Shown one piece after another: positions 6,178 through 58,869 of a stretch of 64,000 bases of DNA. Position numbers and translations under genes: made by a program. Source of the stretch: a virus; IMG/VR virus record IMGVR_UViG_3300046758_000611, positions 1 through 64,000 of that record. One strand, 5' to 3'. Position 1 is the first letter of the stretch, and each line of letters opens with the position of its first letter. The notes under the pieces were generated by a model that was given only the letters and a program-made list of their open reading frames with translations, was not told where the DNA came from and did not search any database.

Positions 6178-7257
6178 TTACGATTGTGAAGAAATCGCAT
6201 AACTATTTAGCACCGACCAAGTTTCCATTAACCAATTATGATGATTCGGAAATGCAGCCCATAATTGGTCTTCGGCAAATTTTTTACTAAACTCAAACTT
6301 ATTAAGTTCAGTCACAGGTGACTCAACATGGTCAAATATTTTTGTTTGCATACTTGCAGGTAAAATACTATCTTTAAGTTGCATCAAATCATAGTTTCTT
6401 TTTAACAATAATTGATTTTCTTCTTTTAGAAAATTTTTATACAAAGGCATCTGCGGTTTTCTGTCTTCGGAAATTTTTAATAAATCCTCAACAGACAATT
6501 TTGATTCGTTTGCAAATTCAGGGAAAGCAGTTTTTAACTTTTTTTCACCAACACCCTTTATACCTGCTATATTATCACCACGGTCTCCATCTATGGTTCG
6601 GTATACCAAAAAGTTGTTTGGGTGTATGCCATATTCAAGTAAAACTTTTTCTTGTGTATACAAAGTTCTTTTGGTGGGACTATATACTGTAACATCCTCA
6701 TCAACGAGTTGAATGAAATCTTTATCAGTACTCATTATAGTTGTCCGTTTACCAAGGCCACTAAATTTTGATCTAGCAAGTAATGCGATTACATCGTCTG
6801 CTTCTACATTATCAATGCAAATCGTAGTTACTGGTAGCATATTTAAATACTCAATGAGTTTCACAATTTGATACTTCATAGAACTTGATTCTTCACTCTG
6901 ATCCATATCTAAACTTAACGCACGATTTACACGAAATCGTACATTTTTTTTCATTTTGTAATCTGGAAATATTTTTCTTCTTCGTGTACTACCACCTTTT
7001 CCATCAAACACAACTACACATCTAGTTGGTTTTCGTAAACGAATTGCATGACCGATACTTTTTAAAAAACCTGTATATCCACCTATATGATCACCATTTT
7101 CATTTGTAGTTGGATACATACTCCAAACTCGCATGAATGTGTTCATACCATCAACTAAAAGTGTGTCGGAATTTATATCCCGTTCCACTTCTAATTCATT
7201 CTTTTTTTCTTTTGAAAATTCTTGAAATAAACTAAATATTTTACTTTTATCACTCAT
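6178..7257 (-). CDS. rnh: 5'-3' exonuclease / RNase H (T4 rnh-like, FEN family)
   Basis: 359 residues. It likely removes RNA primers and processes flaps. FEN/PIN-like nuclease acidic motifs are present: LLVDGMN near the N-terminus, VEADDVIALLA, STDKDFIQLV, and DGDRGDNIAGIKGVGEKK, which combines the last metal ligand with a helix-hairpin-helix DNA-binding motif. The start overlaps the end of the recombinase gene by 8 bases, so the two are translationally coupled. Confidence 0.92.
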   Translation of the reverse strand: MSDKSKIFSLFQEFSKEKKNELEVERDINSDTLLVDGMNTFMRVWSMYPTTNENGDHIGGYTGFLKSIGHAIRLRKPTRCVVVFDGKGGSTRRRKIFPDYKMKKNVRFRVNRALSLDMDQSEESSSMKYQIVKLIEYLNMLPVTTICIDNVEADDVIALLARSKFSGLGKRTTIMSTDKDFIQLVDEDVTVYSPTKRTLYTQEKVLLEYGIHPNNFLVYRTIDGDRGDNIAGIKGVGEKKLKTAFPEFANESKLSVEDLLKISEDRKPQMPLYKNFLKEENQLLLKRNYDLMQLKDSILPASMQTKIFDHVESPVTELNKFEFSKKFAEDQLWAAFPNHHNWLMETWSVLNSYAISSQS

Positions 7258-8407
7258 CCGATATTGATGCCAATTCTTGTTCTACAATTGTATCATTATC
7301 TTCAAATTCAACATCTTCATCAATGACACTATTTGCAGATTCATACTGCATAACAACTTTGTCACAAATTTGAGTATATAACTCGTCTTTTAGTTCAGGA
7401 TTTTCTGCTAACAAAGTTGGAAATTCCTTTGCCATAAACTTGTGTTCATTTTCTTTAGAATCAACATAGGTGTAATATGCCCCACCTTGCTTAAATACTT
7501 TATGAGTTTTAAGTGTAGTAATCCAACTTCCCAAATCATCAATACCACGATTGAAATAAATTTCAAAGGCTGCTTTTCTTTGAGGAGGACCCATACGATT
7601 CTTAACGATTGTTGCTTCGCACTTATTTCCGATTACTTCGGTTGTAGAACCCTGTTTGATTTGTCCAAGATTCTTTAAACGAAGACGAACACTTGCGTGG
7701 AATGCCAATGCTTTACCACCACTTGTTGTCCACGGATCACCAAACATAACTCCCATCTTTTGACGAAGTTGGTTGGTGAATACTAAAGCAATTCGTTGAC
7801 GTCCTATTGTAGAAGTCAACTTACGCATTGCTTTACTAATTAGAATTGCTTTGGTTGTTGCAAATCCATCTTTACTATAATCTGCGGACATTTCTACTTT
7901 AGTTGATGCGGCCGCAACACTATCTGTCACAATAGTTACGAGTCTATCTTTGTTGCTTTTACGAATCGTTGCGATGATATTATCAATTGTTGCGAAGATG
8001 TCTTCTACAGTATCTACATGAACATACAACAACTTGGTTGTATCAACACCGATAGCAGTTAAATATTCAATACTAACACTTGTTTCCGTGTCTATATACA
8101 CTGCAACACCTCCCTTCTTTTGAGTTTCCGCAAGAATGTGACCACACAACAAACTTTTACCACTTTGTTCTAGTCCAGTTACTTCGGTGATTCGTCCCAC
8201 AGGAATTCCACCATTCGGACGATTTGAAATTGCCAAATCAAGTAAACTACTACCTGTTGGAATCCAATCGGAAATTAAAGAAGGATCATCTCCTTCATTT
8301 AAAAAGAATGCTACTTTACCTTCATCCTTATACGCAGAGTTTAGACTTTCTGCAAGTACAGATGCTAAATCTTCTGATTTTGTTTTATCTTCTTTTTTTC
8401 TTGCCAT
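7250..8407 (-). CDS. uvsX: UvsX/RecA-family recombinase
   Basis: 385 residues. It catalyses strand exchange for recombination-dependent replication and repair. Walker A is GLEQSGKS (78-85). The AVYIDTETS segment supplies the catalytic Glu region, and VTIVTDSVAA is the Walker B strand. The acidic C-terminal tail is typical of RecA-like proteins. I chose the ATG at 8407 because the further-upstream in-frame codon is a GTG located inside the 8425-8453 hairpin. The gene lies directly after the gp32-like SSB gene, its functional partner. Confidence 0.94.
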   Translation of the reverse strand: MARKKEDKTKSEDLASVLAESLNSAYKDEGKVAFFLNEGDDPSLISDWIPTGSSLLDLAISNRPNGGIPVGRITEVTGLEQSGKSLLCGHILAETQKKGGVAVYIDTETSVSIEYLTAIGVDTTKLLYVHVDTVEDIFATIDNIIATIRKSNKDRLVTIVTDSVAAASTKVEMSADYSKDGFATTKAILISKAMRKLTSTIGRQRIALVFTNQLRQKMGVMFGDPWTTSGGKALAFHASVRLRLKNLGQIKQGSTTEVIGNKCEATIVKNRMGPPQRKAAFEIYFNRGIDDLGSWITTLKTHKVFKQGGAYYTYVDSKENEHKFMAKEFPTLLAENPELKDELYTQICDKVVMQYESANSVIDEDVEFEDNDTIVEQELASISDE

Positions 8408-8424
8408 AAATTTTAAATTGATAT

Positions 8425-8453
8425 GAGGGTGGTTGGAGATGCCAACCACCCTC
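8425..8453. terminator. Perfect 12-bp hairpin between SSB and recombinase genes
   Basis: GAGGGTGGTTGG and CCAACCACCCTC pair perfectly around a 5-base loop. The T-run (TTGGTTTTTT) lies on the plus-strand side, so it is a canonical terminator only for plus-strand RNA. In the gene direction it has an A-rich lead and no U-tract. It may protect the 3' end of SSB mRNA, attenuate uvsX, or stop antisense transcripts. Confidence 0.65.
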
Positions 8454-8461
8454 TTGGTTTT

Positions 8462-9292
8462 TTAAGACTTAAACAACTCTTCAAAAGCTGCCTCTACATC
8501 TTCCGTGGAAGTTGCATTGGGTTTACTTTTCTCTGAGGTAGCACTTGCAACTTCGGGTTGCTTTACTTCAGTTTGAGTTGATTCAACTACAACTTCATCA
8601 GTTGATACTGATTCGGCCGGTGGTGCATCTTCTTCGGACTCACCACTTACCCATTTTTCAAGAGCATCTTTCAATTCATCATAACTCAATTCTTGATAAA
8701 TTTCTGTGATTTCTGCTTGGTTGTTTGCAACTGACTCTGCGATATTCTTATTGTCAGATACAGGAGATGTGTTGGGTTTTACACGAATATTTGTTTTTGG
8801 AAATGATCGTCCTGCTTCTTCTGCCGAGAGAAACTCAATTGTGATGTCTCTTCCATTAATTGGATCAGTAATGTCTCCATAATCGGGGTCTGCAATAACT
8901 CCGAGTAGTTCTTGATATACTTCTTTACCAAAACCCCAAAAACGAACTCCTTCTGCTTCTTCACCACGAACGATGACAGGAACGAAAGTTCTCATTTTAG
9001 GCATAAGTGAACGTCCCATACGATAATCATCCTTATCTCCACTACGAGTTAACTTTTCAGCAAACTCAACGATAGGGTCTGGACGACCAAACGATTTTGG
9101 GGACAGATATGTCCGGTTGTTGATTCCATAGTGAAAGAACAATTCGATAAACGGATTATCCGGTTGGTGCATATAAGGCACAATACGAACCTGTTGTTTG
9201 CCAGGTTGAGGTTTCCATTGGTAATTCTTACGATTATTACTCTGAGAGAGGTTTGTAAGTTTTGCTTTGATTTTATCTAGGTCAATTGCCAT
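8462..9292 (-). CDS. gp32: Single-stranded DNA-binding protein (T4 gp32-like)
   Basis: 276 residues. It coats single-stranded DNA during replication and recombination. The N-terminus has a short basic helix followed by WKPQPGKQQVRIVPY, a typical gp32 core start. The C-terminal part is acidic and flexible (about 185-276), matching the protein-interaction tail of gp32. The whole protein contains no cysteine, so the zinc-binding site of T4 gp32 is absent. An AAGGA ribosome site precedes the ATG. It sits next to uvsX, as in T4-type replication modules. Confidence 0.9.
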   Translation of the reverse strand: MAIDLDKIKAKLTNLSQSNNRKNYQWKPQPGKQQVRIVPYMHQPDNPFIELFFHYGINNRTYLSPKSFGRPDPIVEFAEKLTRSGDKDDYRMGRSLMPKMRTFVPVIVRGEEAEGVRFWGFGKEVYQELLGVIADPDYGDITDPINGRDITIEFLSAEEAGRSFPKTNIRVKPNTSPVSDNKNIAESVANNQAEITEIYQELSYDELKDALEKWVSGESEEDAPPAESVSTDEVVVESTQTEVKQPEVASATSEKSKPNATSTEDVEAAFEELFKS

Positions 9293-9693: not shown

Positions 9694-10449
9694 TTAACTT
9701 TTTTTGATCAATCTTTTCTTAGAAAGTTTAACTGCGTTTGGATTTATATCACAACCAATGTAATTGCGATTCAAAGACTTTGCTACTTCAAATGTCGTTC
9801 CACTTCCACAGTAAAAATCACCGACTAAGTCACCTTCATTGCTACTTGCTTTAATAATTCTTTCTAAAATCTTAGGATGTTTTTCACTATAATAATCAGT
9901 TGCTTTTTTAACTTTTAAACCAGATGGAATATCATCCCAAACATTTGTAGGTATCGTTCCAACTTTTAGTTTTTCTTCTGTAATATTCGGTCTATCTTGT
10001 TTTTTACTGATTACTGATTTATATGGAACTCTGATGGACATATCATTAAAAACAAAATCATCAGACTTTGTGTATACGATTATATAATCATGCTTTTTTG
10101 CAAATTCTTTTTTTCCTCGTCCACCTATATTAAATTTTACGACAATTTGATTTCTGAAATTTTCATATCCAAACACACTATCCATTAGAATTCGTATCCA
10201 ATGTACAATTCGTAAATCCATTTGTAAATAAATTGTACCGGTGTCAGACAATATACGTTTCATTTCATGCAAACGAGGAATATAATGATTGTTTATTTCG
10301 TTTTTATTTGGTTTTAAATCTGTGTAATCCTTAAATTTTTTACCAGTTCCATATAAAATATCACAATAAATTAAGTTTACACATTCAGAATCCAATTTAT
10401 TTAGAAGTGTTAAGTTATCGCAAGTATGAACTTCGTTTTCTATTTTCAC
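9694..10449 (-). CDS. DNA methyltransferase, beta-class (N4/N6 amino type), with altered catalytic motif
   Basis: 251 residues, GTG start. The order is catalytic motif IV first, then SAM-binding motif I near the C-terminus, as in beta-class amino-methyltransferases. Motif I reads DFYCGSGTT (about 213-221) followed by IGCDIN, where the Asp would contact SAM. The motif IV position reads CDILYGTG instead of the usual DPPY/DPPF followed by NTG: the Asp is kept but both prolines are replaced by Ile-Leu. Segments such as HDYIIVYTK and HPKILERIIKASSNEGD are otherwise typical. It may protect phage DNA from restriction, or be weakened or altered in target. It starts 3 bases after the SpoVR stop, so it is in the same operon. 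Confidence 0.8.
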   Translation of the reverse strand: MKIENEVHTCDNLTLLNKLDSECVNLIYCDILYGTGKKFKDYTDLKPNKNEINNHYIPRLHEMKRILSDTGTIYLQMDLRIVHWIRILMDSVFGYENFRNQIVVKFNIGGRGKKEFAKKHDYIIVYTKSDDFVFNDMSIRVPYKSVISKKQDRPNITEEKLKVGTIPTNVWDDIPSGLKVKKATDYYSEKHPKILERIIKASSNEGDLVGDFYCGSGTTFEVAKSLNRNYIGCDINPNAVKLSKKRLIKKS

Positions 10450-10452
10450 TTA

Positions 10453-12018
10453 TCAAAGTTTACCACCTTCGTATCTTTTAAGTTCTCCATTGTTAAATCT
10501 ATACCTAACTTCAATTTCAATGGTTTCTTTTTCGGCACCGTATCCTTCTTCTACAAGATCATATGTTAAAAGATTAATTGGTTTTTTGATAATTTCGTGT
10601 AAGTATGCCATTGTACCAGTTGCATATTTTATATCAAGTGGTCTGCCTTCAAAGTCATGTCTAAGTAATATTTCAGTATTTTTATATTTCATATTCTCCA
10701 TGTAAATAACAGGTCTTCCCATATTAACATGACGATTTACAAGTTTTTTCTTGATTGCCTTATAATCTTTGCTTACGACAACATACTTGTTTGTAGACTT
10801 ATCAAGTGCATATTCAAAATACTCATTTTTTTCACAAAACTCTTTTGTAAAAAATTCATTTAAAAAAGTTACATCGTTATAGTTTTCACGAACTTCATAG
10901 ATTTTTTCACGACCCAAATTAAGATTCTTATTCCAATATCTTTTTTCATCTCCATTGTCGCAATTTTCGTATTCCTTACCAAACTTTCCTTTATTCCAAC
11001 GATCTTCAATATCTCGCAACAAAGAATTACCAAGTTTATATGGATTATTCATGTTATATTTTCCACCTAAAACACCAGCATGATGTTTTGCATACGCAAA
11101 GATTCCTTCATCTCCTGCAAAATTACAAGTCGCCATAATATATGAATCCCAATAACTTGCCCAACCTTCATTTAGAACCTTTGTCATTCCTTGTGGACGA
11201 TAGTAAATAGATTCATCACGAATCATACTAAGAATATTTTGTTGCCAAGGTTCTAAACGACAATGGTTAATAATCATAAGCATAATATCACGTTCAGGAC
11301 GCAAGGGAAATTTATTTTCTGCTAATTTTTTTCTTTCTTCACGTTCACTTCTTTGCTTTTCAATATAATGCGTGGGATTAACATACTTTTGCATATACTC
11401 TTTAGTATCTAATCTTGTAACGTGTTCACGTGGTTGACGATCTTCAAAGTTAAATTTTGTTGCTTTCTTTAGATTACTTTCACGATAACAAAGTGAAGGA
11501 TCAATTAGATCGTCAATTGCCAAGGCCGCATTCAAAAAGTCTTTTACTTTTTTACGTCCAAAACGATCCATATACATACGAATTTTATCACTATGATTTG
11601 CCATAACATTCATCATATTACGATTAGTATGCTTGAACATAATGTTGTTCTTAAAGAAATCACTATGTGCAGTTGCGTGTGCAACAACAGTCAAATTATC
11701 AACAATAGGATTATTTCTTTGTAGGTACATATAAGTCGGATCGGTATTTACCACCATTTCATAAATCTTACCCATACCTGAATGATATTGATGATGAAGT
11801 TGTTCAAATTGTTGTCCAAAATTAAAATGTGGGTAACGAACAGGAAACCCACCATAGGCCGCAATTTCAACTATTTCATCCGCATCAAATTCTTCAATAC
11901 ATAAAGGGTATGGATCAAGTCCATTATCATAACAGGCCTTTAGTACATCAGGTATAAGTTTTGCAAGTTCTTTGCAAACTCCATATTGTAATTTATCACT
12001 TTCCCATGCAATTCCCAT
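10453..12018 (-). CDS. spoVR: SpoVR-family protein (YcgB-like)
   Basis: 521 residues, close to the usual length for SpoVR/YcgB. Diagnostic stretches include the His-rich QFEQLHHQYHSGMGKIYEMV, the AHATAHSDFFKNN segment and LNEGWASYW. The biochemical function of SpoVR is not established. In bacteria the family is linked to spore cortex formation in Bacillus and, in non-sporulating bacteria, co-occurs with PrkA/YeaG kinase and the DUF444 protein YeaH. Here it follows exactly those two genes, 4 bases after the DUF444 stop, so the whole trio is one operon. Confidence 0.9.
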   Translation of the reverse strand: MGIAWESDKLQYGVCKELAKLIPDVLKACYDNGLDPYPLCIEEFDADEIVEIAAYGGFPVRYPHFNFGQQFEQLHHQYHSGMGKIYEMVVNTDPTYMYLQRNNPIVDNLTVVAHATAHSDFFKNNIMFKHTNRNMMNVMANHSDKIRMYMDRFGRKKVKDFLNAALAIDDLIDPSLCYRESNLKKATKFNFEDRQPREHVTRLDTKEYMQKYVNPTHYIEKQRSEREERKKLAENKFPLRPERDIMLMIINHCRLEPWQQNILSMIRDESIYYRPQGMTKVLNEGWASYWDSYIMATCNFAGDEGIFAYAKHHAGVLGGKYNMNNPYKLGNSLLRDIEDRWNKGKFGKEYENCDNGDEKRYWNKNLNLGREKIYEVRENYNDVTFLNEFFTKEFCEKNEYFEYALDKSTNKYVVVSKDYKAIKKKLVNRHVNMGRPVIYMENMKYKNTEILLRHDFEGRPLDIKYATGTMAYLHEIIKKPINLLTYDLVEEGYGAEKETIEIEVRYRFNNGELKRYEGGKL

Positions 12019-12022
12019 AATT

Positions 12023-13177
12023 TTAAAAAGGTACTTCCTCTTCGGCAGGAGTTAATAATTTTTTAAGTGACTTTAATACATCACTTCTGTCATCCAACGA
12101 TGTGGTTACAATGGTTTTGGGATCAAGTTCACCACTTGATAATTTAGATTGAATGTGTGGTAAAAATGTTGCCCAACTTCTGATTGCTTTTACTTCTGTA
12201 ATTCCGATTAAATTAGAATACTTTTGCATCTTTTTAAGATAATCAACACACACTTCATTGTCTGAACCAAAATTTTCTCCATCACTTAAATAAAATACAT
12301 AAATATTCCACTCATCGAGAGGAAATGCCTTTTCAACAATGTCATCAACTAAGTGAAACGCACTACTAATTTGAGTTCCTCCTCCACTTTTGTATTTGTA
12401 AAACTTTTCTTGGTCTACTTCTTGAGCATGATGATCATGTACAATATATTTTACCTGAGTTTCTTGGTAAAATCGTTGCACCCAGTTATCTAAATACCAA
12501 CACAATTCACGAACAATTTCTCGTTTTTCTTCATCCATACTTGCAGAGATATCAGATACAAAAAATATTACAGCATTTGTATCAGGGTTTTCGACCGAAC
12601 TCCAACTTCTAAATTCTTTATCGTCTTTAACTGGATAAAAGTTAGATAAATCCTCAGGATCATATTCACTTGAGGAAATAAGTCGTTTGAAAGCATTTTT
12701 TAATGTTTTTCGTTTATGAAGTAAACTATTATTTCCTACTTTTGCGATACGATTCCATTTAATTTTTTCTTTAACCATCTCACCATTTTCTTTTGGAAGA
12801 AGATTGGGAAGTTGCAGTTCTTCTCCTATCATATCAAAGTAAGCATCCATACTAATTCCAACATCAATTTCGTGGCCATCACCTTCACCTTCACCACCAT
12901 CACCTGGTTGACCACCCTGCCCTTGACCTTGGGGTGGTCCTTCTCCTACTTCGTCACCTACGTCTGCCTGTCCGTTTCCAATGCCACTTCCATCGGATGG
13001 TTGCCCATAACGAAAACTCGGAAGTTCTACATGAGGAACTTTTACGACAACAAAGTCTTTTCCACGACGAGTGATTCTCTGTCCTGATTTAATATGATTT
13101 TTAAGTTTATCGGATACGTTTCCTTTAACGATATCACGATACTCTTTATGATCTTCTCTGATTCTGCGAGATGGCAT
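12023..13177 (-). CDS. yeaH: DUF444 / YeaH-family VWA-domain protein
   Basis: 384 residues. The N-terminus is basic. A Gly/Gln/Glu-rich low-complexity linker spans about 65-105. The C-terminal half is a von Willebrand A-like domain with a MIDAS-type DISAS motif (FFVSDISASMDEEK) and later SGGGTQISSAF and YLSDGENFGSD segments. This matches YeaH/YhbH (DUF444), the genetic partner of PrkA kinase. The gene lies 32 bases after prkA and 4 bases before spoVR. Function is presumably binding or presenting substrate to the kinase; this is inferred from the partnership. Confidence 0.9.
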   Translation of the reverse strand: MPSRRIREDHKEYRDIVKGNVSDKLKNHIKSGQRITRRGKDFVVVKVPHVELPSFRYGQPSDGSGIGNGQADVGDEVGEGPPQGQGQGGQPGDGGEGEGDGHEIDVGISMDAYFDMIGEELQLPNLLPKENGEMVKEKIKWNRIAKVGNNSLLHKRKTLKNAFKRLISSSEYDPEDLSNFYPVKDDKEFRSWSSVENPDTNAVIFFVSDISASMDEEKREIVRELCWYLDNWVQRFYQETQVKYIVHDHHAQEVDQEKFYKYKSGGGTQISSAFHLVDDIVEKAFPLDEWNIYVFYLSDGENFGSDNEVCVDYLKKMQKYSNLIGITEVKAIRSWATFLPHIQSKLSSGELDPKTIVTTSLDDRSDVLKSLKKLLTPAEEEVPF

Positions 13178-13209
13178 ATAGAATTATCCGTTGATTATTA
13201 TTATTAATA

Positions 13210-15312
13210 TTAATCTTCGTCTTCGTCTGCGTCACCTCTTGCGAAAATACTACCTACATAAGTAAGAACATCCGAAGCACTATCTTCATCGTATCCAAAA
13301 GATGTAATAAGACGTTGCTTCAACGCATCAATTTTTTCAAGAAGTTCTTTGTCAACTACAGTTGCAGTATCTTGAGCAAGAGCAGATAACTTGATGCTAT
13401 CTTTGGTATCTTCAAACAACTTCTTTTCAAGTGCTTTGTATAACTGCTCATTAGAGTCGTATTTAAACTCTTTACCTTTGGCGGCAAGTCCACCCATGTA
13501 GTTCATAATTTCTCTACGAAAATCGTCTTTCATTCCCTCAGAAATTCCTATTTTTTCTTCTATACTACGCATAAGTTGTTCATTTGCAGTTTCTTCTTTT
13601 CCAGTTACAGGGTTTGTAACTTTCTCGTCCTGAATATAAGCAACAATATTATCAATATAGTTTGTGCAAGTTGCTTTTATTGCTTCTTCACTGCTACTAA
13701 GTGCCTGTTGCACTTCTCTTTTCACAATTCTGTCATATTCTTTTTCAACCATTTCAAGTCTTTCCATCATGTTCTTTTTATCATCTTCTGATGAAAACCC
13801 ACTATGACTTTTCAACCCTTCACGGATTTGTGCAAATAACATAAATGGATTTAAACTCTTAGCACCCATTCTTGGATTAACAATTGCATTGGAAAACTGA
13901 TTTTGAATGAAACGTGCTGACACCCCACCATATAATCCTTCTTTTGGAGATTCTTCTTGCATTTCTTTTACGTGTTCATCCGTAAAACCATGCACACTTT
14001 GACCATTGTAAAGTTTTGCCTTCTGAATAATACTCATATCTTGCTTTGTGCTTTCTTCTAAACGACTTACAACTGCAAATAAAGCAGCCAAATATGTTGT
14101 ATGTGGTGCAATGTGTTTGTTTACAGTACTTTTGTTATAGAAGTGATCATAAATCTTCTTTTCTTCGTCAATCTTGAGAAGGTACGGAATATCAATTTTA
14201 ATTGTTCTGTCACGAAGTGCTTCCATGAATTTGTTGTTGGTTAATTTTTCAAATTCAGCATTATTTGTATGACCAAGAATAACTTCATCAATCGGTACTT
14301 GATTGAAACGACGTGGTTTAACACGGTGTTCTTGGGTTGCCCCAAGTAAATCATATAAGAACTCAGTTTGAAGTTTAAGAATTTCTTGGAACTCAATCAA
14401 ACCACGATTTGATACGAGAAATTCTCCATCAAAATCAAATGCACGGGGATCACTTTCACTTCCGTATTCTGCTAACTTACGATAATTAATATCACCGGTA
14501 AGTTCGGTTGCATCTTGTGACTTTTCGTCTTTCGGTTGAAAAGTTCCTATACCGATGCGGTTTTTTTCTGACAATGCAACTCGTCTGACTACAATATGAT
14601 CTAGTACTTTGCGATAGTCTCCACCATGCAATTCCATTAATTGGTTATAGTAAAATTCATTTACCGGGTTTAATGCTCCATCTAATTTGATTCGATAGTC
14701 ATCTTTGTCAAGAGTTGAATTAATTTTAGAAATAATAGATTCTTTAATGTCTTCTGGTAAGAGTTTCAATGGCTCTTCGTTCATTGGACACGGAACGAGT
14801 TTTTCATTTCCACTTTCATCGGTAAGTTTCCAACTAAATGAATATAATGCACCTTCATTAGTTCGTGTGTATGCCTCAAGACCTTTTTTCAGTGCAGTAA
14901 CAATTGTAGACTTACTACTTCCAACAGGGCCGTGGAGTAATATAACACGTCGTTCTGGTCCGTAATGTCTACTTGCACTTTTAAGTATGTCCATAAACTC
15001 CATTAGATTTTCCTCAAGTCCATAAATTGAGATGTCACCGAGTCCTTCAAAGAATTTGTATCTTACATATGTTCGTTTGCAATAAGTTGTCTCGTTAGTT
15101 CCATGAGACATTACCATGTCGTATAATCTTTGATATGAATTTCTTGCGATGGTAGGTTTTTCTTCCACCATATTGATGTAATCCCAAAACGAACCTGTCC
15201 AATTTAACGATTCGTATGATTGAATTGCGTCATTGTTTTCAGACTTAATTAAAGATTCAAGACTACTTTTTGAATCTTTCTTTTTTTCTTCATATCTTTT
15301 TTTATTTTCCAT
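13210..15312 (-). CDS. prkA: PrkA/YeaG-family AAA serine protein kinase
   Basis: 700 residues from the ATG at 15312, which has AAGG eight bases upstream; an adjacent ATG two codons earlier and a TTG further upstream are less likely. The AAA part carries Walker A LLHGPVGSSKST and the downstream EILKLQTEFLYDLLGATQE and DEVILGHTNNAEF stretches that are hallmarks of PrkA. The C-terminal kinase-like region continues for about 300 residues. PrkA/YeaG proteins act in stress, nitrogen-starvation or sporulation responses in bacteria. It is slightly longer than typical family members. It is the first gene of the PrkA-DUF444-SpoVR trio. Confidence 0.92.
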   Translation of the reverse strand: MENKKRYEEKKKDSKSSLESLIKSENNDAIQSYESLNWTGSFWDYINMVEEKPTIARNSYQRLYDMVMSHGTNETTYCKRTYVRYKFFEGLGDISIYGLEENLMEFMDILKSASRHYGPERRVILLHGPVGSSKSTIVTALKKGLEAYTRTNEGALYSFSWKLTDESGNEKLVPCPMNEEPLKLLPEDIKESIISKINSTLDKDDYRIKLDGALNPVNEFYYNQLMELHGGDYRKVLDHIVVRRVALSEKNRIGIGTFQPKDEKSQDATELTGDINYRKLAEYGSESDPRAFDFDGEFLVSNRGLIEFQEILKLQTEFLYDLLGATQEHRVKPRRFNQVPIDEVILGHTNNAEFEKLTNNKFMEALRDRTIKIDIPYLLKIDEEKKIYDHFYNKSTVNKHIAPHTTYLAALFAVVSRLEESTKQDMSIIQKAKLYNGQSVHGFTDEHVKEMQEESPKEGLYGGVSARFIQNQFSNAIVNPRMGAKSLNPFMLFAQIREGLKSHSGFSSEDDKKNMMERLEMVEKEYDRIVKREVQQALSSSEEAIKATCTNYIDNIVAYIQDEKVTNPVTGKEETANEQLMRSIEEKIGISEGMKDDFRREIMNYMGGLAAKGKEFKYDSNEQLYKALEKKLFEDTKDSIKLSALAQDTATVVDKELLEKIDALKQRLITSFGYDEDSASDVLTYVGSIFARGDADEDED

Positions 15313-15356
15313 AACCATTACCTTATATTTTTTTTGTGAGTGAGTCAAATGTTTTA

Positions 15357-15755
15357 TCAAATATTTTGAATTTTAAACAATTTTGTATCAATTTTTCTAA
15401 TGTCACCCGTAGGTGAAGTTAATAATATACAATTTTCATAATTGTTCCAATTAATTTGGAATTTCAAATCAAGAAGACCGTTATTTAAATGTTTAATTAG
15501 CATATTCAGTGAATTTATTGTGTATATAGTGTTTGAATCTTTTTTTCTATGAACACTTATAGTATTACTAAAGAAGTTACTTTTATTTAGTAAAGCAGAA
15601 TTTATATTGTATGTCAAATAAATCTCATTTAAATCATCGACATTCTGCAAAGCATACACTTTTCCGAATAAAATATCATAAAAACTCGAAACCTGCTTGA
15701 TAATTTCATTATAGTTCTGAATATCTGTAAATGTACAAAGTAGTTGAGTTTTCAT
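15357..15755 (-). CDS. Small protein, unknown, paired with polymerase-like gene
   Basis: 132 residues from the ATG at 15755, chosen because AAAAGG lies nine bases upstream; a longer reading to 15815 would overlap the upstream gene by 8 bases. The protein begins MKTQLLCTFTD and has alternating strands and helices with many Asn, Lys and Ile. No family recognised. It sits between the family A polymerase-like gene and prkA. An ATAAATAT word on the plus strand (15787-15795) precedes it, so it may start a transcription unit. Confidence 0.6.
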   Translation of the reverse strand: MKTQLLCTFTDIQNYNEIIKQVSSFYDILFGKVYALQNVDDLNEIYLTYNINSALLNKSNFFSNTISVHRKKDSNTIYTINSLNMLIKHLNNGLLDLKFQINWNNYENCILLTSPTGDIRKIDTKLFKIQNI

Positions 15756-15807
15756 TAATAATAACCTTTTTATTTTGTTAGTTATCCATAAATATATATT
15801 AGAAAAC

Positions 15808-17091
15808 TCAAACATGGATTTCTGCTAAATCTCCATAACTTCCTCCAGCATATAGTTTTAAAGGAAACTGGTCATCTGGATTCATAATTTTTATTATATC
15901 CTTAATCGAATTAAACTCACATTTATGCAAATCAAACAAAAAAGCATCGTATGTATACAACGATAAATTTATTTGTTTTCCATTAATAAATTGTAAAATA
16001 TTTTTCAAAACCTTGCAATTTCTTTCAGTTTCTGCTGATTGTAGTAAATAATTAAAAACTTTATATGGGTTTGGTTTATCTTCAAATACATCAGAATATA
16101 TTCTCCTTTTATATATCCAAGTTTCTACAAAATTATTTTTTTGATAGAAATCTTTAACTTCCATGATATAGTCGTGTATTGATTTCATAAATGGAACATT
16201 ATCAATTATATCTTGGGTTATTCCACCGTACATTAAATTAAATGTAATCTTCTTGGAAAGATCATACTCTTCTTCTGTTAATTCGTCTTTCCCGTGATAC
16301 AGTTTACCTAGATATGTGTGTAAAGATTCGTTGGGTAAATTATATCCTACATGATTGGCAAATAATCTCAAATGATAACTTTCATAATCAATCATTGCCA
16401 TAGCACCGTCATCTCCGTATCTACTTACATAATCGTTTCGTTCTCCTTCCTTTTTATTTAATGCAAGAAAATTTATATTGTTATATCGATTACTTGGTCT
16501 TGATGTTGGTGTGAATAAATTATATTGAGTGCTAAGTAATCTATTATTCTTTTCGGAAAATATTTTACTTTTTTCCAGTTCACATAATACTTCACTTAAA
16601 TCATTTATAAATTTGTCGGTTGGTGATTCGTATGTGTTTAGTGCATTTTTAATACTTTCGAAGGTATCGTTGAACTTTTTTAAAATCATCATTATAGGAA
16701 TTGATTTATTACTTTTACATCTCGGTAAATCAATTTGAATTTTACTTTTATTTCTATAATAAACATGAAGAGATATATCAACTGAGTTTTCAAAACTTAC
16801 AATATGATTTGTATCCTTTTTATTTACTATTATTTTTCTACAAGAAGATTTTGCAATTTTATCAAGCACTCGTGTATCAATATTCACAACATCAGGATGT
16901 GAAAAGGATACTGCAAATGTATCATTATTATCTATATTTTTAATTAATAAAACTAATGGTTTTACTTCAATTGGGTGAGTTTCCTGTTCTTCTACGAATA
17001 AGTGAAAAAAAAATTGTTCTGTACTATCAAGTTTACTAAGTAAATGTTTGAATTCGGATATTGTTTCAACAAAATGCATTTCGTTTATCAT
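15808..17091 (-). CDS. Divergent family A (Pol I-like) DNA polymerase domain protein
   Basis: 427 residues. Motifs of the family A palm and fingers appear in the right order. A TPTSRPSNRYNNINF segment (194-208) corresponds to the Pol I TGRLSS..PNLQN stretch. Motif A is MIDYESYHLRLFA (233-245) with Asp235. The O-helix is KKITFNLMYGG with Lys280, Phe284 and Tyr288 in the Pol I spacing, but the usual first Arg is missing. Motif C is YTYDAFLFDL with Asp382, where the usual HDE is YDA. I see no 3'-5' exonuclease motifs in the N-terminal 190 residues. Both metal-binding Asp are kept, so activity is possible. A T4-type family B polymerase is not in this window. It could be a repair or accessory polymerase, or a repurposed fold. 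Confidence 0.68.
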   Translation of the reverse strand: MINEMHFVETISEFKHLLSKLDSTEQFFFHLFVEEQETHPIEVKPLVLLIKNIDNNDTFAVSFSHPDVVNIDTRVLDKIAKSSCRKIIVNKKDTNHIVSFENSVDISLHVYYRNKSKIQIDLPRCKSNKSIPIMMILKKFNDTFESIKNALNTYESPTDKFINDLSEVLCELEKSKIFSEKNNRLLSTQYNLFTPTSRPSNRYNNINFLALNKKEGERNDYVSRYGDDGAMAMIDYESYHLRLFANHVGYNLPNESLHTYLGKLYHGKDELTEEEYDLSKKITFNLMYGGITQDIIDNVPFMKSIHDYIMEVKDFYQKNNFVETWIYKRRIYSDVFEDKPNPYKVFNYLLQSAETERNCKVLKNILQFINGKQINLSLYTYDAFLFDLHKCEFNSIKDIIKIMNPDDQFPLKLYAGGSYGDLAEIHV

Positions 17092-57511: not shown

Positions 57512-57838
57512 TTATCCTTCTATATAATCTATGGGTTTGTTTGTTTTAATGTTTTTCTTACAGGCCTCTTTTTTTTCAAAATACATATATGGAGAATTTT
57601 TGATATACCACTCTGTACAATGATAGACGGTTCCACTTAAGATAGGTCCTTCCGTACTCATTGATTCTGTAAACGAACCTATAAATTCATATTTGTGTTT
57701 TTCTTTTAAAAAACGGTTTGCCATATTTTTTGACCAAGATTCATTTCCTTCTTTTTTTGTTTCAAAACTATATTTCTCACCCGACTTTGCGAGTTCAAGT
57801 TTATATGATTCACCTAAACTTTCGGATACTAAATTCAT
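57512..57838 (-). CDS. Unknown small protein
   Basis: 108 residues, predicted mostly strands, with no signal. Its start overlaps the kinase gene stop by one base, so it is translated in the same operon. No family recognised. Confidence 0.6.
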   Translation of the reverse strand: MNLVSESLGESYKLELAKSGEKYSFETKKEGNESWSKNMANRFLKEKHKYEFIGSFTESMSTEGPILSGTVYHCTEWYIKNSPYMYFEKKEACKKNIKTNKPIDYIEG

Positions 57839-58869
57839 TAATCAAACTTCTCCGATTTAATTTTCATGTAAAATCTAGTAAATTCGTCACTATCTAGTTC
57901 TAAACTTTCAACTAATCTTGATAATACTGCCAAATTCCGTTGAGGTGATAGATTAAACTTTTCTATTATATAAATTGTACGACTCAAATATCGTTCAAGG
58001 TCTGCTGGTAAAATTGCTTTATCAATTTCATTTAATAGTTGTTCAGTAACACGATTTCTTTTATCACCACTTTTGCTCATTTTATCGTATGCCATCATCA
58101 TTTTGATCCATTTCTTTCCAATTGGATTTTTAATTGGTTTTGAAATAAATTTTGCTACCTCTTTCATAAGTCGTGGAACTAAATCTAATCTACCAGGTTT
58201 TGTTTTACTACGAGTATCTTCTGAATTGTCTACTATAACAAAGTTTGCTTTGAACAAACCTTGAAACTTACCAAGATTTTTTTGGACATCTGTCCAAATA
58301 TCCTTTACTATTTTTCGTGGAAGTTTTCTTTTACGCATTGCGTTTCTTTGTTGTGCGACATCAAGTGTTGTGTTTACAAACACCATATAACAATCGTATC
58401 CTAGTTTTTCAAGTTCTTTTTTTTGCTTTGATATTTTGTTATAGTTGTCACCTGTCCCATCAACAATAATACCCAAACGACCATCTTTAAATAACTCAAA
58501 TTGTTTAAGCATTATTTTCTTCGCACGGGAACGAATACTATTTGGATCATCACTTGTTACTTTGGCAAATGTTTCATCATCCATTTTAGATAAATTCAGA
58601 TCATATCCTGCCTTTTTAAGTAATATTTCAAATGCAGGATCACTGTTTACAATCTTTAAACCACTTGGTGATAAATTTTTTGCATCCGGTGGAAAATTGA
58701 ATAATGTATCAACAGTAGCAGATTTACCAGAACCAGGTCCTCCTGCTAAAAATACTGCTTTTAAAATACCAGGATCATATACACCCTCTACAAGTGTAAA
58801 GTATCCTTTACGCAATCCTGCTTTAATCAGGGTTTCTTGGACTTTTTGATTTTCTTCGGATTTTTCCAT
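57838..58869 (-). CDS. P-loop kinase (zeta-toxin / polynucleotide-kinase-like)
   Basis: 343 residues. Walker A is FLAGGPGSGKSATV (Gly43-Ser50). IVNSDPAFE, GIIVDGTGDNY and an Arg-rich lid (AQQRNAMRKRKLPR) complete the kinase fold of the AAA_33/zeta-toxin type. The family phosphorylates nucleic acid ends, sugars or other small molecules. The operon also encodes a ligase-like fusion, so a 5'-end-healing kinase is an attractive idea; no phosphatase domain is seen. No antitoxin gene is adjacent. Confidence 0.75.
   Translation of the reverse strand: MEKSEENQKVQETLIKAGLRKGYFTLVEGVYDPGILKAVFLAGGPGSGKSATVDTLFNFPPDAKNLSPSGLKIVNSDPAFEILLKKAGYDLNLSKMDDETFAKVTSDDPNSIRSRAKKIMLKQFELFKDGRLGIIVDGTGDNYNKISKQKKELEKLGYDCYMVFVNTTLDVAQQRNAMRKRKLPRKIVKDIWTDVQKNLGKFQGLFKANFVIVDNSEDTRSKTKPGRLDLVPRLMKEVAKFISKPIKNPIGKKWIKMMMAYDKMSKSGDKRNRVTEQLLNEIDKAILPADLERYLSRTIYIIEKFNLSPQRNLAVLSRLVESLELDSDEFTRFYMKIKSEKFD

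Follow-up and report, generated by a model that had tools for sequence, protein, structure and literature searches.

Introduction

PrkA, DUF444 and SpoVR are widespread in bacteria and are linked to starvation, stress and sporulation, and their biochemistry is unsettled. In Rhizobium etli, the prkA, DUF444 and spoVR genes form one operon that is strongly induced by (p)ppGpp (PMC3188799), with the three families in the order found here. In E. coli, yeaG-yeaH and ycgB are separate, and YeaG and YeaH act together as a metabolic brake under nitrogen starvation (PMC10954441). We analysed the same three families in a viral genome. The stretch, called the window below, is the first 64 kb of the 170,221-base IMG/VR virus record IMGVR_UViG_3300046758_000611. 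We consider it moderately probable that the trio is an ATP-driven protein-remodelling machine, which was gained as one unit and retained by a clade of T4-like aquatic phages.

The occurrence of the trio in phages was known before, as PrkA and SpoVR are listed in GenBank annotations for Thermus phages and in the paper on RsoM2USA. Like the window, Thermus phages phiYS40, TMA, phiLo, MN1 and Lalka cluster all three genes, annotated as 'SpoVR', 'serine kinase' and a von Willebrand A (VWA) protein. However, their order is DUF444-SpoVR-PrkA, the identity is about 30% for PrkA and about 20% for SpoVR, and they appear to represent a separate acquisition. The huge phages LR756511, LR745206 and LR756504 carry all three genes in the window's order. 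PrkA and SpoVR are present in LR756502 and in the Ralstonia jumbo phage RsoM2USA (SpoVR ORF28, PrkA ORF30). Copies of the LR745206 type resemble E. coli YeaG (62-65% identity) and also appear to be a separate acquisition, whereas LR756511 falls in a freshwater phage clade. The yeaG/yeaH genes of Enterobacter phage LAU1 were rejected as a phage trio; they are 98% identical to E. coli, stand at the end of the record and are probably host DNA. An AAA+ motor with a partner bearing a metal-ion-dependent adhesion site (MIDAS) is described in the MoxR AAA+/VWA pairs of jumbo phages and Acidianus two-tailed virus, one phage set having a metallopeptidase domain (PMC7824862). Unlike these systems, the motor in the window belongs to PrkA, an AAA+ family of its own. 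The trio is common to many uncultured aquatic phages and has few cultured carriers, mainly Thermus phages. No paper treating PrkA-DUF444-SpoVR as a phage module was found in the open-access literature, a search in which subscription papers were not covered.

Results

Three adjoining complete open reading frames (ORFs) for PrkA, DUF444 and SpoVR were located at positions 10453-15312 on the minus strand, separated by 32 and 4 bases. A sequence-only reading of the window had described three full-length genes of these families in this arrangement, and both the coordinates and the Pfam matches (E values of 1e-68 to 1e-107) agreed with it. All scores were far over the curated cut-offs. PrkA matched AAA_PrkA (PF08298, E 1e-85) and then the PrkA C-terminal domain (PF06798, E 9e-72), both near full length. 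DUF444 matched PF04285 (E 1e-68, 232 bits against a cut-off of 27), and SpoVR matched PF04293 (E 8e-107, 358 bits against a cut-off of 27) over profile positions 5-405 of 407. The PrkA reading frame opens at a TTG at 15360, and in-frame ATGs at 15318 and 15312 stand behind an AGG.

The viral collections were searched for the co-located trio, and it was found repeatedly. In IMG/VR, 159 viral contigs matched PrkA, 80 of which were fetched and compared, and trio-related matches were present in 16 annotated phage records. The order PrkA, DUF444, SpoVR on one strand was kept in 75 of the 80 contigs; the other five (L012, L027, L043, L044, L081) stop in or shortly after PrkA. Most of the nearest bacterial loci, from Myxococcota, Planctomycetota, Chloroflexota and others, share this order.

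The insertion was examined by anchoring the comparison on the UvsX gene. Phages with UvsX at least 81% identical carry the trio and a DNA methyltransferase gene between the 152-aa ORF at 15357-15815 and the gene for the single-stranded DNA (ssDNA)-binding protein, where the contig reaches. In contrast, a profile search detected no gene of the trio in 59 loci with UvsX of 60-65% identity. These loci keep the flanking genes in the same order where the contigs reach, and about 100 bp separate the flanks in L239, L251 and L258. Annotated sister phages also lack PrkA. Because the same flanks occurred with and without the trio, the block was most likely gained once, in the ancestor of the window clade, and then retained. 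The methyltransferase accompanies the trio throughout the clade and was not found at this site in sister phages; it probably entered together with the trio.

The trio is under purifying selection. The ratio of nonsynonymous to synonymous substitution (dN/dS) for the trio across seven relatives was mostly 0.03-0.10, like that of the ssDNA-binding protein and UvsX. Identity across the clade was 78-99%. The proposal that the phage carries the whole set under selection was borne out by the families, their order, these ratios and the intact catalytic residues. As a separate observation, the polymerase A-like gene nearby evolves fast (dN/dS 0.16-0.44 in the seven relatives, identity mostly 42-51%). 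It matches DNA_pol_A weakly and is possibly a degenerating or split polymerase.

Phylogenetic trees were built with a bacterial sample of the 80 nearest PrkA loci and E. coli. The trees of DUF444, of SpoVR and of the concatenated proteins joined the window clade to the freshwater phage clade, which includes huge phage LR756511, and set both apart from all sampled bacteria. The join of the two clades had a support of 83 in the concatenated tree, which is not decisive. Taken by itself, the PrkA tree set the window clade next to bacteria, with a weak support of 86. Approximately unbiased (AU) tests rejected a single origin of all phage copies in the case of the Thermus phages (p 2e-5) and of LR745206 (p 0.007), and did not reject it for L085 (p 0.17). 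The placement of the Thermus phages in the trees calls for caution, as their branches are long. Since the Thermus phages and LR745206 cannot join the window/freshwater group, the trees point to at least three separate acquisitions of the trio by phages. The expectation of a phage clade distinct from bacteria was therefore upheld for the window clade in three trees, and it failed for the phage copies as one group. Unlike the bacterial operons, the window trio lies in a phage gene block and in a separate phage clade, and its PrkA shares no more than 55-56% identity with the closest bacterial PrkA obtained. In addition, a few contigs labelled as viral fell near or inside the bacterial branch (L083 and L086 in the PrkA tree, L085 in the other trees); these are a further acquisition or misclassified host DNA.

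The residues of the PrkA motor were inspected in an alignment of 35 sequences that ranges from E. coli to Thermus phages. The Walker A motif is GPVGSSKST with K150/S151, and K150/S151, E323/E326, N366 and R385 were invariant. Walker A, Walker B-like acidic residues, a sensor 1 Asn and an arginine finger are thus all present, the role names being given by analogy. A solved PrkA relative is 9xip (E 7e-214); after it, the profile search yielded nothing but weak P-loop matches, to RAD24 and Lon. PrkA was considered as a MoxR-family AAA+ protein and rejected, as its best matches fall in the PrkA family and the MoxR analogy concerns mechanism only. At the position of E. coli YeaG K426, the window protein has Asn487 and not Lys; this column held 29 Asp, 5 Asn and 1 Lys.

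The DUF444 model (predicted local distance difference test, pLDDT, 83) matched a VWA domain in Foldseek with E 2.7e-8, and the Rea1/MDN1 MIDAS and Rpn10 were also among the hits. The MIDAS residues D209-S211-S213, T268 and D299 were invariant across the family sequences compared. DUF444 is accordingly modelled as a VWA fold with a complete DxSxS...T...D MIDAS. The intact Walker A and MIDAS motifs noted in the sequence-only reading are thus features of the families as a whole. Relatives of DUF444 and SpoVR in the PDB were not found by sequence or profile.

SpoVR was modelled with a pLDDT of 86, yet a fold match in the PDB was absent (the best, with E 0.025 and a template modelling score of 0.13, is not meaningful). 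HxxxH and (N/H)EG are conserved in the family. Its most deeply conserved residues are E87, H114xxxH118 and E284, the last within NEGWA. E87, H118 and E284 were retained in all distant copies shown, including E. coli YcgB and the Thermus phages of about 20% identity, which suggests that they form a metal or active site. The HxxxH and NEGWAS motifs bear what we take to be a likeness to the gluzincin motif, unconfirmed by profile or fold. SpoVR as an M1-like gluzincin was rejected because the catalytic Glu of HExxH is absent and neither a PepN profile match nor a PDB fold match was obtained.

SpoVR inteins were confined to two sites, one between YEMVVN and T92 and the other between NEGWA and S288, which adjoin the two best-conserved motifs. 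In freshwater phage contigs, the intein follows NEGWA in L050, L053 and L055, follows YEMVVN in L056, L074, L079 and L082, and is found at both sites in L071. Four bacterial loci also have SpoVR inteins (L096, L109, L123, L126). Pfam splicing and LAGLIDADG domains were found in the examples tested, and the window copy is without intein. Inteins tend toward active-site motifs, and their positions therefore give weak independent support for the SpoVR motifs. A literature search for SpoVR and intein returned no paper, and SpoVR inteins seem to be unreported.

The record has a T4-like myophage gene set with tail sheath, portal, major head protein, large terminase subunit (TerL), prohead S77 protease, UvsX, DnaB-like helicase and ribonucleotide reductase. 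By TerL and major capsid protein, its closest cultured relatives are the Flavobacterium phages 'immuto' and Microcystis phage Mel-JY01, at 50-54%. Downstream of the trio are genes for the N6/N4 methyltransferase, the ssDNA-binding protein, UvsX, an exonuclease, DnaB helicase and ribonucleotide reductase. These agreed with the flanks described from sequence, whereas the polymerase-like gene is not the immediate neighbour, because the 152-aa ORF sits between it and prkA. The side opposite the replication genes leads into tail genes, and the trio directly follows the tail block. A promoter scan was uninformative (49 promoter-like sites, 48 expected). The features are listed in Table 1. Elsewhere in the window, positions 57838-58869 encode a protein with a zeta-toxin-like kinase domain (Pfam Zeta_toxin, E 2e-11).

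Table 1. Position and assignment of the trio and of other genes named in the text (window coordinates unless a contig is given).
Feature	Position	Strand	Length or basis
PrkA, AAA+ ATPase and PrkA C-terminal domain	13210-15312	-	700 aa from ATG at 15312
DUF444 (YeaH-like), C-terminal VWA domain with MIDAS	12023-13177	-	384 aa
SpoVR (YcgB-like)	10453-12018	-	521 aa
N6/N4 DNA methyltransferase	9694-10449	-	Pfam N6_N4_Mtase E 1.5e-42
152-aa ORF, left flank of insertion, also in trio-less sister phages	15357-15815	-	synteny
ssDNA-binding protein, right flank of insertion, also in sister phages	8462-9292	-	PHROG E 1e-20
UvsX-like recombinase, anchor of the with/without comparison	7250-8449	-	PHROG E 3e-77
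Polymerase A-like gene	15808-17091		Pfam DNA_pol_A 27 bits, under its 34.3 cut-off
Full-length DnaK, DnaJ with zinc-finger domain, ClpP	about 145004-146908, 151523-152572, 152894-153535 of G000:C1		= L172:5005-6909, 11524-12573, 12895-13536
Two full-length glutamate dehydrogenases in tandem	L172:8297-9679, 9698-11041	+	

Further genes of this phage code for DnaK, DnaJ and ClpP, for an M29 aminopeptidase and for a tandem pair of glutamate dehydrogenases. Elsewhere in the annotated phage records, DnaK is found mainly in huge phages, and glutamate dehydrogenase matches in the phage collection are mostly short or metagenomic records. In 20 freshwater phage contigs (L045-L063 and others), a ClpP-like gene stands downstream of SpoVR, in most of them as its immediate neighbour. 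This gene (e.g. L063:13129-13824) is usually followed by a DnaE-like gene, and the DnaE of L063 has an intein. Bacteroidota are the presumed hosts of aquatic 'moraphages' that carry DnaK/DnaJ (PMC12619734). This parallel and the kinship with Flavobacterium phages make a Bacteroidota host plausible.

Discussion

Within the proposed machine, PrkA would be the AAA+ motor and DUF444 would be a MIDAS adaptor that holds client proteins, much like MoxR/VWA pairs and the Rea1/MDN1 MIDAS. SpoVR would be the third part and may act as a metal-binding effector or be a client. In the replication phase, the machine would remodel or remove host (or phage) proteins. Its most plausible use would be to quiet host metabolism or to control protein quality, rather than to act as a serine kinase cascade. 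The pairing of motor and adaptor is favoured because the AAA+ residues are intact and the predicted structure of DUF444 is a VWA domain bearing a MIDAS. Further support comes from the fixed order in phages and most of the nearest bacteria, the R. etli operon, the low dN/dS, the negative PrkA assays, the joint work of YeaG and YeaH, the presence of DnaK, DnaJ, ClpP and glutamate dehydrogenases in the genome, and the ClpP gene next to SpoVR in many freshwater relatives. That the three proteins work as a single machine is our inference, and so is the nature of its clients.

Part of the evidence weighs against this reading. First, the loss of the E. coli effect in the YeaG K426A mutant was taken by its authors as a loss of kinase activity (PMC10954441). 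Second, related contigs without PrkA also have DnaK (2 of 19) and ClpP (8 of 19). DnaK and ClpP were therefore rejected as specific partners of the trio, and the proteostasis context is not specific to it. The use to the phage may be a metabolic brake, proteostasis or virion assembly, and between brake and assembly the gene neighbours point both ways.

Virion assembly, in which the trio would be a chaperone or processing system for head or tail proteins, is a rather unlikely explanation, although several neighbourhoods fit it. The trio lies between the portal/minor head and TerL genes in Thermus phage Lalka8, near TerL and tail sheath in Thermus phage TMA, and directly after the tail genes in the window. 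The same was proposed for the MoxR-VWA(-metallopeptidase) systems of group 2.2 jumbo phages and Acidianus two-tailed virus (PMC7824862). However, sister phages with the same gene order make virions without the trio, the neighbours in the freshwater clade and Thermus phage MN1 are nucleotide-metabolism and replication genes, and the bacterial copies work in starvation and sporulation. A tripartite processing machine with SpoVR as an unrecognised metalloenzyme of new fold, taken over independently by several phage lineages against host metabolism, is a tentative idea to which we give a similarly modest chance.

Early biochemical reports named PrkA/YeaG a serine kinase, and the literature on phosphotransfer conflicts. 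The phage PrkA might then be a true kinase in starvation signalling, phosphorylating host proteins and imposing slow growth. It would fit the calming of metabolism by YeaG/YeaH under nitrogen starvation, an effect abolished by K426A in the proposed kinase domain (PMC10954441), and the two glutamate dehydrogenases of the phage. However, the K426 equivalent is missing in the window, a Lys occupies this position in just 1 of the 35 aligned sequences, and purified B. anthracis PrkA had no detectable kinase or protease activity (PMC13001217). The kinase reading of the phage PrkA is weak for these reasons, and starvation signalling of this kind is improbable. The suggestion from sequence that host proteins are phosphorylated was thus not sustained. 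Its other suggestion, that slow growth is imposed or blocked, is compatible with the YeaG/YeaH brake by analogy with E. coli.

It is just as doubtful that the AAA+/MIDAS machine serves counter-defence or superinfection exclusion by dismantling a host defence complex or excluding competing phages. AAA+/VWA pairs are known from several conflict systems, and the accessory block was inserted once alongside a DNA methyltransferase. However, the trio is fixed in the clade and its rate of evolution is as low as that of replication genes, whereas most counter-defence genes turn over fast. Functionless passenger host DNA or a chimeric assembly, which the bacterial nature of all three families and the 55-56% identity to the nearest bacterial PrkA might suggest, is hardly credible: it is refuted by synteny, in that both junctions recur in independent contigs from many metagenomes and the site is seen with and without the trio, and by selection on what is a phage clade of its own.

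Returning to the remodelling machine, each of the at least three phage acquisitions kept all three genes. These results suggest that the proteins are useful jointly and are able to act outside a sporulation or RpoS programme. The intein positions mark SpoVR motifs that are worth mutating, and the phage trio offers a compact system to test the function of PrkA, DUF444 and SpoVR.

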